Under the pieces are notes generated by a model. That model was not told the origin of the DNA, ran no database searches, and saw nothing but the letters and a program-made list of their open reading frames with translations. A DNA stretch of 64,000 bases, taken from positions 2,425,362-2,489,361 of the forward strand of contig MU271148.1 in assembly GCA_021432605.1 (NCBI GenBank), in the 5' to 3' direction. The translations under genes and the position numbers were made by a program. This DNA comes from Coniochaeta sp. PMI_546. Lineage: Eukaryota; Ascomycota; Sordariomycetes; Coniochaetales; Coniochaetaceae. Below are positions 750-25,425 of this stretch, piece after piece (position 1 is the first letter of the stretch; each line of letters begins with the position of its first letter).

Positions 750-1304
750 ATGCCTTCCTCATTATTCGCACTTGCCACTAACCTAGCCGGAGAGAGCAGG
801 ATGACCCACTTCTTTTCCCTGCTCCACGTGGCGCCGTGTCCGCAGTCTTACCATTTATGGACTAGTGTCAATTCGGCGCGTCTTCGACACGCTTCGTGGA
901 ATTGGCGATTTCAACCATCCTCTCCTTCTGACAACTACAATCACCTCTTCGACCTGTCTTTGCCTCGGAGTCTGCAGGAGATGCGATCAGGGTTGATGCC
1001 ATGTTATGCGAGCTTGGGAACGGACGAACAACCTCGAGACCTGATCAGTAGAAGTTCTTTCACAGCTCTCGAAGCCACCTCAATGCACGACGCCTCCCCT
1101 TCAGTCCTCCGATTCCTGTTTTCCGAAAGGAATGTTCACTTGAACCTTTCGGCACTGGACTGGTTGTTCACGTCACTCCCATCTTCTGAACCTGTATCAG
1201 GTATCAAGCTTGACGCGGATGGGATGCGTGATCTCGTGCGTTCCTTCTGGGGCAGCGAGCCAGGCCTGCCGCGAGAATGGGTCTCGGAACTTAACCCTAA
1301 GTAA
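750..1304 (+). CDS. hypothetical protein, 184 codons, single exon
   Basis: An uninterrupted 184-codon frame starts 240 bp upstream of, and divergent from, the Rtp1-like gene. The product is Ser/Leu-rich with several Trp and no signal peptide, membrane segment or recognisable motif. An internal ATG at 801 is an alternative start. I do not recognise a family. Its length is more than chance usually gives in the surrounding intergenic DNA, but no splice structure or domain supports it, so it may be spurious. Confidence 0.3.
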   Translation: MPSSLFALATNLAGESRMTHFFSLLHVAPCPQSYHLWTSVNSARLRHASWNWRFQPSSPSDNYNHLFDLSLPRSLQEMRSGLMPCYASLGTDEQPRDLISRSSFTALEATSMHDASPSVLRFLFSERNVHLNLSALDWLFTSLPSSEPVSGIKLDADGMRDLVRSFWGSEPGLPREWVSELNPK

Positions 1305-2737
1305 TCTGTTGGTTATCACCGAGTCTTGCGCTTATAGTCGTCCAAGTCGCCTTTTAAGTCTGATTCAATTACCAGCAACGTCGGGCGCCGCTGAGAAGTG
1401 GTCCGGGCCGAGCCAGGAACGATGAAGACGGACAGGCGAGGAAGACATTCCAGACATCTCCGGATGCGTGAGCGGTTTTTCACTATGAGCCGGTATGGTA
1501 AGAGCCTCGCGTAGAGGTCGCTCGTCAGGATTGTACCACTGGAACCAGTACTCTGGTCAAGAGGGATTGTTCTGGTGATATGGACTGCCAGTCTGACGTG
1601 GAAGATACGCTTAACGGGTGCTCCTGGTCGTGGGGTTTCCATCTAGTGACGGCTCTTCGTGAGCGTACCACGAGGGTACAAGGGAGAGCGCAGTGTTGGC
1701 CACAAACGACCAAGCCCCGACACTTCACTCCTGCCTAGGATTTGCCTCGCCAGAATCACCAAAGTCTTCCTGCGGTGAGCGAGGATCATATGGCTACAAA
1801 CGGAAAGGTCAACTGGGCTTGGTGCCTCTCACTTGCATCACTGTTACGCTCTCGGCACCTTTGCTACCCATCCACTTCTACCACTCAACCACACGCAGGC
1901 GATACCGGAGTTTCTAAGACATCCAGACTGGCAGTCTGTTCCCAGGACCGTGCTTGGCAACAGCCAGGGCACGTCATAGAAGCATGTAATCCGACCAGGC
2001 GCATCAACCTGTCCTCGAATGGCTTTTCATTCGATCCGGCAGGACGCCAACCTCTTGCCTGGTACCTCCGGGTATCAGGTATTGTTCCTTCGGTGTACCT
2101 ACTCTGGGCTCACACCCGAAGATGATAGCGCGGTTTTTACGGATGTTTTTGTTCGCGCGGTCTGCCCTCCTTAGCCGGTCGCTTGCGATCCCGATGGAGC
2201 GGAAACAAAAATTTGTCCAAGTTGGCAGTGCAGTCACACGGAAAGATTTTCTCGATCCGGTATCCTGGTCCAAGTTACGCTCATTCTCGCTGGTTCGACT
2301 TCTGGTGGTATTGATGATTGCGGCTCCTAATGTGGAATGGATCTGTTAAGAGCCCTGACCTGGTCGGCTCCTGGGGATATTCTACAGAACGATAAAAGCT
2401 GTGCCGGGACCCATCTTGAGTTGGAGTCAGAGCTTCGTGCTCGTCTGGTGCAGTGGATATCCTCTTGTATCTATTCTCAGGCTTGCCAGCGAGGGAGCCT
2501 GCTAAGAGGATCGGCTTCCTGGGAAGCGGTCCTGGCTGTCCCTCTCTCCAGCGATGGCGGGAGGGCGGCCCCTCAAAACGCTGAGGATAAGTCACCCCGC
2601 CTGTAGAAAGTTTGATACGATTGCTAACTAACTTGCGAAGATACCTACAATCATTGCGACAGACTTCACTTGACTCAAGTATAACTAGAATAGTTCGCAA
2701 GAGCGAACGGAGAAAAAGAAAAGAGAAAAAATCAATT
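1305..2737. other. intergenic, no supported gene
   Basis: Several overlapping short frames occur on both strands (longest about 139 codons), none with a recognisable motif or consistent splice structure. I see no repeat or mobile-element signature. Confidence 0.5.
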
Positions 2738-14077: not shown

Positions 14078-16552
14078 CTACATCAAACACGCAACCTTGC
14101 GACTGCTGTGAAGCTCCGAGGCGCCGACCTTGATGCGTGTCTTTGGTCCAACCCAGGCAAAAGCCTCGACGAGCCATTCATACCAGACACTCGTGTCGTC
14201 AGTCTGGCGCCACATGCTGACTTCGAGCTCCGTGTCCTGGGGGAAGTATAGGGGTTGCTAGAAACATAATAGTTAGCGAGACTGCAGTATGCTTCGAGGT
14301 AGTGGTGGTAAAGTACCCTTAGCGGGAAGAAGATTGGGAACCAAGAAATCATGTCCTTGCTCTTCCGGTCGATCTGGTCCGGGACCGTACTAATCTCGAC
14401 CAGCTCCTTCTTCTTATTTATCGGCGCGTAGAGGGTTGACTCGAAATAACCGGCCAGGCCATGAATGACACCACGAGACCGGCAAACAAAAGTGAGATGG
14501 CAATGCCTGGCGTTGTGTTCATTGGCGCCACTGGAACCGGACATGCTCCCTACACCAGGAGTGGTATACTTGGCAGCCAAGCCGTGCTCCTCGATGAAGT
14601 CGTCCGCGCGGCTGACCTCCACCGGATGGCTGAACTCCCACGCTTCCTGGAACCGGTGCAGAAGCGGGACACTTTGGCAGACGAAGTCAATCGCGAAGAG
14701 ACGCACCACCCACGGCGTATCAAACGCGTTCGGATCACTTGCGATCCGGGACCCAAGGTCTGCATGAATTCGGGGAGTCGAAATCGGGCTGAGATGTGCG
14801 GTGTAAGATGCCGGTATTGAGATTCCATGCGGCCGCGCGATATGTTGTTGGATACCGTCAATGCACTCAGGCGATAGCTCATTGTCGCCGAAGGATCCCA
14901 GAAGTTCTGTCACCAGGATGTCGACCTTGGTGGTGATATTATCGTAGCCCTTGGGCGTAGGTCCCGTCCAGCCACGCATGTCTGTTTTGACAACAGTTAC
15001 CTGGCCATTCCATTCGCGCTCGTTCTGTCGGAGAAGGTACACATAGGCATTCTGGTTCTTCTCCAGGGCCCATAGCTGAATCGCAGTACCTGTGGTGGCT
15101 GCCGCCCGCAGTACACGTGTAACTAGGGGACCGCGGCCGGCTCCAGCTACAGCAACAATGAGCTCCGGCTCGGTGTGTCCTTCATATGGAAGTGATGACG
15201 TTGGCTTCTTGAACTCTTTCCAGTCCCTCATGGCTTCGGTGATGGCGAGTTCGTACTGGTCATACTTGACAGGATCGCCTTCGAACATCTCGTAGGTGGC
15301 GGATTCAAGGTTATCCGAGAGCGGTTGCAATGGCGACTGGAGCCAATCCTGAAATGTTATCAGGGTCGGTGATTCGATGTTATCATATGGCGGCTGGTTA
15401 CGCTCAACATATCTCATATAAGAGACGTGCGCGTTATAGTTGTCTCTCCTGTTCTCCTGGAGAACTTGCTTCGCTTCAGCAAGAGAGGGAAAGTCCAACG
15501 ACTTCGTGCTGCTCTTCTCGGCAAGGTTCTTAGCGTCAGGGCCAACATCAGACAGAATTAACCACGGAGCATTTTTCAGGCGCATATAGCGGTTGAGCAT
15601 TTCCTGGTGATGTCGACTTAGCGATGGGTTGCCCGTCCGATTTACTTGAAAGATATTGGAGCTGAAGGTCAGGTAGTGTAATGGTTCCGCAAACCAGCGG
15701 TCCTGAAGTTCCCGCTCTGGCAGCCGTTTTGGAATTCGAAGAGCAACGAATAGACGCATGCTATAGGTGCAAGCGGTCCTGATAGTGTGCCAGCTATCCC
15801 ATGCACTGAACAGATCAATTTCAACACTCGGGTCCTTCTTCTCGGCAGTTGCTGCACCAAGGGTCGTGGACAGCAGTTCTGTTTTCTCCTCCAGCCCAGG
15901 CTCGCGATACATGGGCATGTGCACGATAATGTTGGCGCGAGTAGACACCCGAAGGAGCTCATTGATCGCGCGAGCGAACTGGGCAACTTCCTTGCCGCTT
16001 TCATCGCTCCGGGGTCCTGGAACGATGATGCTCCTTACACCACAGAAGTTGGCATAAGCGACCTCTAGGTTCAAGGCCTGCCTGGATATGCTTGAAATCA
16101 AAGGGTCGGATGAGCAAAGGTCGATCCATGGACTGGTGTAGGCAACCAACGAGCTGACATAACTGCTGGGGAAGAGGGTGGTGTCCTTGTCGGTAAGGGC
16201 TGGCACTATTGGGACTGGTAGCGAGGCGTTGGCACTCTGGCTCGCAGAGAGGCCTCGCTCTTGTTTCCATTCCTCGCGTTCTTGTAGGTGACTTTTATAT
16301 AGCTCGACAACTCGCTGCCGAAAGTGAGCATTTGTGATAGGGGTTGTCACAAAGCTAAACTTGTGGTTCAATTCTGATTAGCGTACCCGGCCGTTCGTCA
16401 ACAACGAGAGAACTTACACCATTGTTCAGGACCTGGTAATACTGGTCCTCTGGGAGAGTCTCAGTTCGGTCCGAATCATGCTGGCCGAGGTAGAAGTTGG
16501 GCCGACTCTGGAATTCCCCAGACTCTGGATTTAGAGAGCTGCTTGAAGCCAT
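14078..16552 (-). CDS. PRMT5: type II protein arginine methyltransferase (PRMT5/Skb1)
   Basis: Three exons: 16552-16418, 16359-14317, 14257-14078, giving 785 aa. PRMT5 makes symmetric dimethylarginine on Sm proteins, histones and other targets. The N-terminal TIM-barrel part is followed by the SAM-binding motif VAVAGAGRGPL, then ELLGSFGDNELSPE, which carries the two catalytic Glu and is nearly identical to the human sequence. ATYEMFEGDPVKY contains the Phe typical of symmetric-type enzymes, and the C-terminal barrel ends in VWYEWL...GASELHSS. Intron 1 is placed with donor GTAAGT and acceptor CACAAG: the nearer CAG is only 4 nt from the CTAAT branch site, and the AAG choice restores a GFxF motif aligned to the human barrel start. 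It is divergent from PRP43 over a 607-bp promoter. A start 26 codons upstream is possible. Confidence 0.95.
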
Positions 16553-19565
<3,013 letters not shown>

Positions 19566-22491: not shown

Positions 22492-24475
22492 ATGAACCGT
22501 CGAGAGCAGTTCAAGCCAGAAAACCAGTGCCGAGCTGAAGGTTGCAATGGCGAAGTCTTCTTCAAGATAATCCAGGGAGATGCTGCCTCTGATAGGAGGC
22601 AGATGGGCAACAGGAGTCCTCTGACTCCTGTGAATGGAGGACACCCGCATAACCAGCAGATACGAATGTTCCCTGAAGGGTCGAGGATTCTTTCCACTTT
22701 CTGCAAGAAACGTACATGCTCACCAGAGCTTCAAGCCTTGCGATAGATATGCTTACAGAGGTCAAACAGATACCTGCAGCCTATTCCTCACAGACGAAGG
22801 GTGCACTTTCAAGAAGCCGATCCATGATACGGTCTGCGCAATCCGTGAGTTTCCAATGACGGCATCTGCGACGATAGAGTATATGTATAGCTGACATGTC
22901 ACAGACACCAAGTGTCCCATCCCGGGTTGCGCCAGGGCGAAGTCCCAGTATCTCGACGCGGGCACTGCCCAGGGTGGGCCGTCCAAGTATCTTCGCCACG
23001 ACTTCTGCCCAGATCGTGAGCCACCGCCTTCCCCAAGGTCCCAAGAGCCCGCTTCCTGACTTCCAGCGACAACAGACAAGTGCGTAGTAGCGAAGTGCCC
23101 TCAGCGACGGGTGTTGTACCAGTCAACTGGACAAGCTCCCAGCGGACAGCAGGGGCGGTTCCTCACTGTCTGTCAACAGCGTAAGTTACTTCTCAGACAC
23201 ATGGCGCCACCATTTTACTGACTGTGTCCAGACCGTTGTAAAGCGGAAGGCTGCGTCGAACAGAGCCAAGAGGGCCGAAACAGCTGTCGAGATCGTGCGT
23301 GTTCCCTAGTCTAACCAAACGATGGCCATCTCTCGCTAACGCAGTGGGCAGACGAATGCAGGACGCCGGAGTGCCGCACAATAGTCGAAGACGGCTACCC
23401 CTTCTGCGCGATTCGTAAGGCGCCCATCCATGGCTTCCACCGAGGTCAATGCTGACAGCCGAGACAGATATCAAGTGTACTGTAGCCAACTGCGGCAATG
23501 CGAGATATCTGCCCAAGGGAGCAAAGGATTACCTCTTGGGCTGCGAAATGCGTATGTGTAGTCCCTCGCAATATGTGTATTTCAGGCGTTGCTAACCGGG
23601 CCTCTAGATGTAACTTGTGCAGCCGTTGGGTGCTCGAAGCTGAAGGTCTTGGGATCAACGTTCTGTCTCGGCCATACATGCCAAGAGCGAGGTTGTGATA
23701 TACAAGTTACAGAGGGGATGTATTGCAGAATCCGTATGTTGCTCGATTATAGGCATGTTGTGATCAGAACTGACCAAAGCAGACCGCTGCGCATATGAAT
23801 CGTGTCGTGGTGCCAAGTCCTGGAAGGAAGACCGTACCGGTGGGGAGTACTGCGGTTTGCGTAAGTATTCATTCTGAGTGGTCCATAGTAAGAATTTAAG
23901 AACTGACAGGAAGCTGAAACAGATACATGCCGTACCGAGAAATGCCGCGAGAGTGTTAGCAACCTTGCCTTGTACTGCGGGAAGCGTAAGCACGGATGCA
24001 CTTTCGGAATTCTAGGACAGGTCACTGATACGAGCTCTAGACAAATGTTCCGAGGTAAAGTGCTTAGCCAAGGTATTGGATGAGCAGCTTTGCACAGACC
24101 GTGAGTAGCGCTCCTGAACCTCCGCCTCCGCCTCGGCTGTGACTGGTCGAGAGAGAATTGTATTGACGAAATTGAAACGTAGACTTCAAAGCCCTGTACA
24201 TCGCCAAAGGACGGGGAGAGGCAAGTGCCGGAGTAGACGAAGCTCCACGACAGCGATGCCCTCCAGCGAAGAGCATCACCTACCGCCGACAGTCTGATGA
24301 AGAGTGGCGCAACGGCAGTAGCTCGAGCACGGCGTACGATACCAACCACGCCAGACCTCAGCCAGACCGTAGGGCTACCGTGAGCTTGCAAATCGAGTCA
24401 GACTATGATGACGACACAAGGAAGTCTGTCCCTAGCCGAATGAGCCATAATGACGAGGAGGTTGATCAGTGGTAG
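22492..24475 (+). CDS. 12-module Cys3-His repeat protein with one module per exon
   Basis: Twelve exons: 22492-22711, 22770-22844, 22905-23015, 23076-23180, 23232-23294, 23352-23414, 23468-23551, 23608-23733, 23783-23860, 23923-23985, 24041-24100, 24183-24475; 446 aa. Each module reads C-x4-C-x(8-26)-C-x2-H (C-x8-C in module 2, and a much longer loop in module 1), for example RCKAEGCVEQSQEGRNSCRDH. All eleven introns (49-82 nt) split the terminal His codon as C|AY in phase 1, so every internal exon is a multiple of 3. Modules 8 and 9 share exon 8, where CAT-ACA-TGC is uninterrupted. The last about 95 residues are a polar tail ending acidic. No signal peptide or membrane helix. The pattern suggests zinc-binding beads; it superficially resembles WRKY19-type zinc-finger repeats. 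I do not recognise a characterised homologue. Intron-by-intron frame agreement makes the gene model strong; function is unknown. Confidence 0.85.
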
Positions 24476-24792: not shown

Positions 24793-25425
24793 TCAATCAC
24801 CAGTGTCAACCTCCAAATCCAGCTGCACGCCCGAACTGATGCCGTAGTCCTCCAACGAAAGCTGGTCCTTGAACGGCCTCTCCCCTTGCCGTTTCAGCAA
24901 GATCTCGTGTGGTTTCCGTCCCACCCTCGCGGCGACCAGCACTCGCAAGTCCTTGATCTTGTCCGACGGGAAACAAGGTATCTGCGCCTTGGTGCCCAGC
25001 CGGTCGTTGACGGTTATGACGATCATCTCCTCTCCTCCAGAGGCAGGTGCCGGCGCCGGTGCTGCTTTGGGTGCCTTCTTCTTCTCTGAGTCCTTGTCCT
25101 TTGAGCTACGCTCTTTGCGCTTGTCGGAGTCCTTGTCCCTGTCCCTGCCACCGTCTCTGTCCCGCCGCGAGCTGTCGGGCCTGTAGCGGTCGTCCCTTGC
25201 CCTATCGCTGTCCCGGTCTGCCCTGTCCCGGTCACGATCGCGATCTCTCCTGGGCGAACGGTTGCGGTAGCCGCGGTCTAGTCCGCGGTCGCGACGGTCT
25301 TCGTCGTCATTCGTGCTTCGCTTCTCCTTCCAGCGAAAACCGCCGCTGCTTTTTCCACTTCGTCGTGGTGGTGAGCGAGAGCGCGAGCGAGGGCGCTCTG
25401 CTCTTGGTGGTGGTGAGTCTCCCAT
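24793..25425 (-). CDS. HUB1: Hub1 ubiquitin-like modifier with N-terminal RS/RD-rich extension
   Basis: A single exon, 210 aa. Residues 134-210 match Hub1/UBL5: MIVITVNDRLG at the domain start, then FKDQLSLEDYGISSG near the end. Hub1 binds spliceosomal proteins such as Snu66 non-covalently and affects splice-site choice. Canonical Hub1 is only 73 residues and ends in a double Tyr; here a 133-residue leader of RS, RD and Lys-rich repeats precedes it, and the end is LDLEVDTGD with no Tyr pair and no Gly-Gly for conjugation. The leader resembles the RS-like regions of splicing factors and fits a nuclear location. Met at 134 lies at the normal Hub1 start, so a short form by internal initiation cannot be excluded. 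Confidence 0.88.
   Translation of the reverse strand: MGDSPPPRAERPRSRSRSPPRRSGKSSGGFRWKEKRSTNDDEDRRDRGLDRGYRNRSPRRDRDRDRDRADRDSDRARDDRYRPDSSRRDRDGGRDRDKDSDKRKERSSKDKDSEKKKAPKAAPAPAPASGGEEMIVITVNDRLGTKAQIPCFPSDKIKDLRVLVAARVGRKPHEILLKRQGERPFKDQLSLEDYGISSGVQLDLEVDTGD

Follow-up and report, generated by a model that had tools for sequence, protein, structure and literature searches.

How could a compact fungal gene acquire eleven introns that all cut the same codon of a repeated module? The question is raised by gene A, at positions 22492-24475 of a 64,000-nucleotide window (the whole stretch analysed: positions 2,425,362 to 2,489,361 of contig MU271148.1, assembly GCA_021432605.1) from Coniochaeta sp. 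PMI_546. The genome of this fungus, whose source is given as the inside of healthy Populus deltoides roots in the available text of PMC6757388, comprises 33.5 Mb in 24 contigs. The explanation that we favour overall, with a probability of roughly 0.6, is that gene A descends from an ancestral array of phase 1-1 exons encoding a chain of multiple zinc modules, and that introns were later lost from two paralogues, here called B and C.

Gene A and its exon array

The start codon at 22492 and the stop codon ending at 24475 proved to be right, and the spliced model contains 12 exons and 11 GT-AG introns of 49-82 nucleotides and encodes 446 residues. This product is 100% identical over 446 residues to the deposited P0001 (BR93DRAFT_692158, hypothetical protein, Coniochaeta sp. 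PMI_546), which bears out the exon and intron numbers of an earlier sequence-only reading of the locus; the deposited model is independent of that reading and may itself be a prediction, and splice sites were picked by hand both in that reading and in our analysis. A branch-point-like motif was found 10-17 nucleotides before the acceptor end in all 11 introns and the exact CTRAC in eight of them, using a loose motif set and no shuffle control. Additionally, reading through the introns meets an in-frame stop in nine cases and shifts the frame in the remaining two (49 and 55 nucleotides), and the guanine plus cytosine fraction is 0.549 in exons and 0.502 in introns. We conclude that this is a real fungal gene, predicted to encode twelve small zinc modules of the C-C-C-H type in a row, followed by a tail (Table 1).

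As the sequence-only reading had stated, all 11 introns lie within the His codon that ends a C-x2-H motif, one base into the codon (phase 1). There are 12 such codons, the sole uncut one lying between modules 8 and 9 within exon 8, and the chance that 11 of 11 introns fall on them is about 10^-24 under uniform random placement (12 codons in 1012 nucleotides); none of the other six His codons of the gene is cut. Introns are found at 10 of the 11 internal module junctions, with one more before the tail. Other parts of the earlier description also held: the ten internal exons measure 60-126 nucleotides, all are divisible by three, and exon 8 has two modules. Each of the other nine carries a single one, and phase 1 introns on both sides place these exons in class 1-1. 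Two statements had to be amended. The proposed 12 modules are there, all of them in exons 1-11, exon 12 having none, and the form C-x4-C...C-x2-H does not extend to module 2, which is C-x8-C, nor describe the insert of about 50 residues in module 1. Since the internal exons are multiples of three with phase 1 at both ends, it follows from the sequence that any of them could be gained, lost or skipped with the frame kept and the neighbouring zinc sites unharmed.

Table 1. Exons and introns of gene A, and other features of the window
Feature	Position	Strand	Description
Exon 1	22492..22711	+	start codon; module 1 (C-x4-C, long insert, FCKK-H)
Intron 1	22712..22769	+	58 nucleotides; phase 1 in His codon, C|AT
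Exon 2	22770..22844	+	module 2 (C-x8-C variant)
Intron 2	22845..22904	+	60 nucleotides; C|AC
Exon 3	22905..23015	+	module 3
Intron 3	23016..23075	+	60 nucleotides; C|AC
Exon 4	23076..23180	+	module 4
Intron 4	23181..23231	+	51 nucleotides; C|AC; same stretch omitted by C. ligniaria P0002, in another frame
Exon 5	23232..23294	+	module 5
Intron 5	23295..23351	+	57 nucleotides; C|AC
Exon 6	23352..23414	+	module 6
Intron 6	23415..23467	+	53 nucleotides; C|AT
Exon 7	23468..23551	+	module 7
Intron 7	23552..23607	+	56 nucleotides; C|AT
Exon 8	23608..23733	+	modules 8 and 9 (sole internal junction without intron)
Intron 8	23734..23782	+	49 nucleotides; C|AC
Exon 9	23783..23860	+	module 10
Intron 9	23861..23922	+	62 nucleotides; C|AT
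Exon 10	23923..23985	+	module 11; not in annotated C. ligniaria P0002
Intron 10	23986..24040	+	55 nucleotides; C|AC
Exon 11	24041..24100	+	module 12
Intron 11	24101..24182	+	82 nucleotides; C|AC
Exon 12	24183..24475	+	module-free tail, 96 residues, ending DEEVDQW (as in P0002); stop
Telomerase RNA	913-2586	+	Ascomycota telomerase RNA (RF02462)
Open reading frame	14083-16371	-	
Open reading frame	17160-19403	+	
Open reading frame	24793-25425	-	

Two paralogues with introns at the same codon position

A protein search of the same genome with gene A led to two further loci: L018, which lies about 2.1 Mb from gene A on its contig, and L019 on a different contig. The models of the two paralogues were assembled by hand and their modules counted by our own parsing. 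Paralogue B encodes 522 residues with 17 modules and has three introns, at three of 16 internal module junctions; paralogue C encodes 557 residues with 18 modules and likewise has three introns, at three of 17. All six introns lie at C|AY (the first of C requiring an AAG acceptor), so that 17 of 17 introns in the three genes share one codon position. Introns at unrelated places in the modules of a homologue, which the sequence-only reading had named as evidence against itself, were not seen in B or C. Each paralogue has nine modules in one exon, and the last exon of C holds a further seven. Genome searches with B and C at an expectation value (E) of 1 added no other member of the family, these counts being lower bounds. 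In addition, genome and protein searches returned only family members and no otherwise unrelated protein with the module; such searches depend on shared words and comparable length, so that single modules may escape them.

Ligand conservation and related proteins

Among aligned positions, the zinc ligands changed in 0/16 cases in A, 1/57 in B and 1/27 in C, against 25/88, 96/435 and 70/164 changed residues overall (hypergeometric 0.0025, 4e-6 and 1e-6, respectively). The ligand set covers exons 8, 9 and 11 for A and modules 12-18 compared with P0005 for C, and that of B consists of the 57 ligands caught by the pattern, below 17 times 4. The tail of A differs at 47 of its 96 residues. The C, C, C and H ligands are kept under selection in the parts compared, and each module would probably bind one zinc ion through them and fold independently.

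Matches of deposited proteins to the spliced junctions support the splicing of the PMI_546 paralogues and do not show introns in the other species. The three junctions of B are all matched by P0006 from C. ligniaria, and the three of C by P0004 from C. hoffmannii, also where the acceptor is AAG. P0007, the deposited PMI_546 model of B (335 residues; L018 1364-3119), matches the third junction and is without the 5' part that P0006 supports. P0003 and P0008 do read through an intron at the C|AY position, with Arg replacing His. By eye, two modules of P0009 (Cytospora schulzeri) end in C-x2-Arg at intron positions of B, perhaps an unspliced or wrongly spliced C|GT. Also by eye, the C. hoffmannii model of C, P0004, omits roughly 100 residues, several modules, that are present in P0005; this gap is either an annotation artefact or an exonic intron.

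For gene A, the C. ligniaria protein P0002 has the tail and the modules encoded by exons 8, 9 and 11; the absence of the exon 10 module could be due to exon loss, skipping or annotation. P0002 also runs on through introns 3 and 7 and lacks precisely the 17 codons that make up intron 4. From P0002 and P0007, this unnamed family of zinc modules appears to have been mis-annotated by gene callers.

Origin of the exon array

We propose that an ancestral phase 1-1 exon with one module was duplicated together with its intron, giving rise to an array that would have formed before the split into three paralogues. Gene A would have retained the module-end introns, and B and C would have lost most of theirs, exactly. 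Similarity among the modules of one protein does not exceed that among modules of different proteins. The array is probably older than the paralogues, with introns at module ends as the original state and most of them lost from B and C, a gain being possible. The exon-duplication origin put forward by the sequence-only reading is supported in part. As to copying by intron-flanked duplication, the introns of the paralogues agree, being at the same spot, but module similarities do not recover an order of the copies.

Several results weigh against our proposal. The within-minus-between similarity of modules is slightly positive, though 114 of 1000 shuffles reached it. The module-order score was reached by 16 (A-B), 91 (A-C) and 17 (B-C) of 500 shuffles, and, by single-module Z, the first two modules of A do not find their best matches in the first two of B or C. 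Because single modules hold so little signal, intron loss and intron gain cannot be told apart. Furthermore, module 1 of B ends in Cys instead of His and module 17 of C is C-x4-H. The first part of P0002 corresponds to exons 3-7 read in a different frame, fails to reproduce introns 5 and 6 cleanly and retains the codons just before the acceptor of intron 6; the exon DNA of the C. ligniaria copy is largely there, and the model may be wrong or the gene decaying. DNA-level reading covered PMI_546 as the sole fungal genome. Structure predictions are weak overall: the best AlphaFold models, built from 8 and 7 sequences, had a mean predicted local distance difference test (pLDDT) score of 56.3 and 59.6 and a predicted template modelling score of 0.35 and 0.34, with mean pLDDT down to 33.9 and 32.9 across the five models; central modules scored better and tails were of low confidence. 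A fold search with the first model matched no solved fold, and no Pfam family scored above its cut-off (no family at all for the gene A protein).

Among other explanations, a late amplification confined to gene A is unlikely, although it accounts for some features of the paralogues. It would start from an intron-poor ancestor, A multiplying one intron-flanked exon and B and C multiplying modules inside large exons, which is what their nine-module exons and the seven-module last exon of C look like; moreover, the candidates for introns shared by order, those that follow modules 1, 2 and 3, lie at the 5' end. Still less probable is independent insertion, in which C|AY would be a preferred site for repeated gains in an intronless array. 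The best-scoring pair of introns does not stand out from shuffled ones (77 of 200 reach it), as this reading would have it; the mean score of intron pairs is 0.96, against a shuffled mean of -0.82 (standard deviation 0.48), a difference that shared splice signals or composition may or may not explain. Arguing against it are the single codon base used by all 17 introns and the uncut state of the six other His codons of gene A. The proto-splice site is AG|G, which C|AY is not.

A slightly lower probability still is given to descent from a transposon-derived cysteine cluster of the CxC6 kind (PF18721), found beside KDZ transposases and since domesticated. The cysteine cluster is a likeness, and P0002 matches CxC6 with 15.9 bits (E 0.015) and an exon of paralogue C with 10.7 bits (E 0.68), all below the cut-off of 27.5 bits; the other seven of nine scanned sequences gave no match. 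In the genome, CxC6 has two weak matches (E 0.37 and 0.93), both outside genes A, B and C, and no KDZ transposase was matched in the PMI_546 genome, though control genomes gave none either. Zf_WRKY19 (PF24906), also a short zinc module, reaches 13.2 bits (E 0.082) in one module of paralogue C, under its cut-off of 27 bits, with none in A or B. Its best genomic place, also in paralogue C, scores 18.7 bits, and these scores are near noise because five of 14 control genomes match below the cut-off too. The Zf_WRKY19 and CxC6 matches are leads and not membership. Finally, it is very improbable that the pattern is an artefact of introns picked to fit it. Hand-chosen sites, splicing known from sequence alone and a deposited model that is perhaps also predicted would leave room for this; the identity of that model, the branch-point-like motifs in every intron, the paralogue junctions matched by proteins of other species and the ligands kept in exons 8, 9 and 11 speak against it.

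Possible function and comparison with known systems

Under the ancestral-array explanation, the protein would be a string of independent contact points. No signal peptide was seen by eye in the gene A protein, which we presume to be intracellular, and we tentatively suggest, as a rather doubtful possibility, a multivalent zinc scaffold for RNA or protein partners. The tails are unlike by eye, that of A ending as listed in Table 1, that of B being rich in Gly, Tyr and Pro and that of C in Arg and Glu, and these differences fit different partners for a common scaffold.

According to the available text of a recent review, exon shuffling is restricted to Metazoa, for reasons that the review asks about, had a larger role in extracellular proteins (some intracellular ones, titin for example, also used it), and drew on domain types that are all of class 1-1 (Patthy 2021, PMC8001218). 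As far as that text describes them, metazoan class 1-1 modules resemble those of gene A: a phase 1 intron lies on either side, the copies stand in tandem and the exons are frame-neutral. Unlike them, gene A is fungal, is without a signal peptide by eye and has introns that cut a probable metal-ligand codon; it consists of tandem copies in one family, movement between unrelated genes being unproven. Outside animals, the leucine-rich repeat arrays of Tetrahymena, in the accessible part of PMC6564038, are similar in their tandem repeat exons, near-uniform intron phase and variable exon number, and differ in being phase 2, exactly 90 bp per exon, built of leucine-rich repeats and present in more than 1000 genes per species in most species.

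The architecture of gene A suggests growth by exon duplication in a fungal gene, a mode of evolution familiar mainly from animals. It is possible, though at somewhat less than even odds, that we are seeing genuine exon-modular evolution outside animals, in a Sordariomycete family: a probably intracellular zinc module would have become a class 1-1 exon and multiplied through its introns, and modules would still come and go as exons, as suggested by the exon 10 module missing from the C. ligniaria protein, possibly also by frame-neutral skipping. A compact ascomycete gene of this architecture, whose paralogues have few introns at the same spot, is small enough to be a tractable model: comparisons of genomes and RNA could separate exon duplication from exact intron loss and from exon skipping. 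An unnamed zinc-module family is also exposed.

Other features of the window

The telomerase RNA of the window matches the whole covariance model with 548 bits. Among the open reading frames near gene A are those for PRMT5, for a helicase most similar to Prp43 and for a UBL5/Hub1-like protein that carries a long extension at its N terminus, all of which we presume to be tied to splicing; their grouping near gene A may be due to chance.
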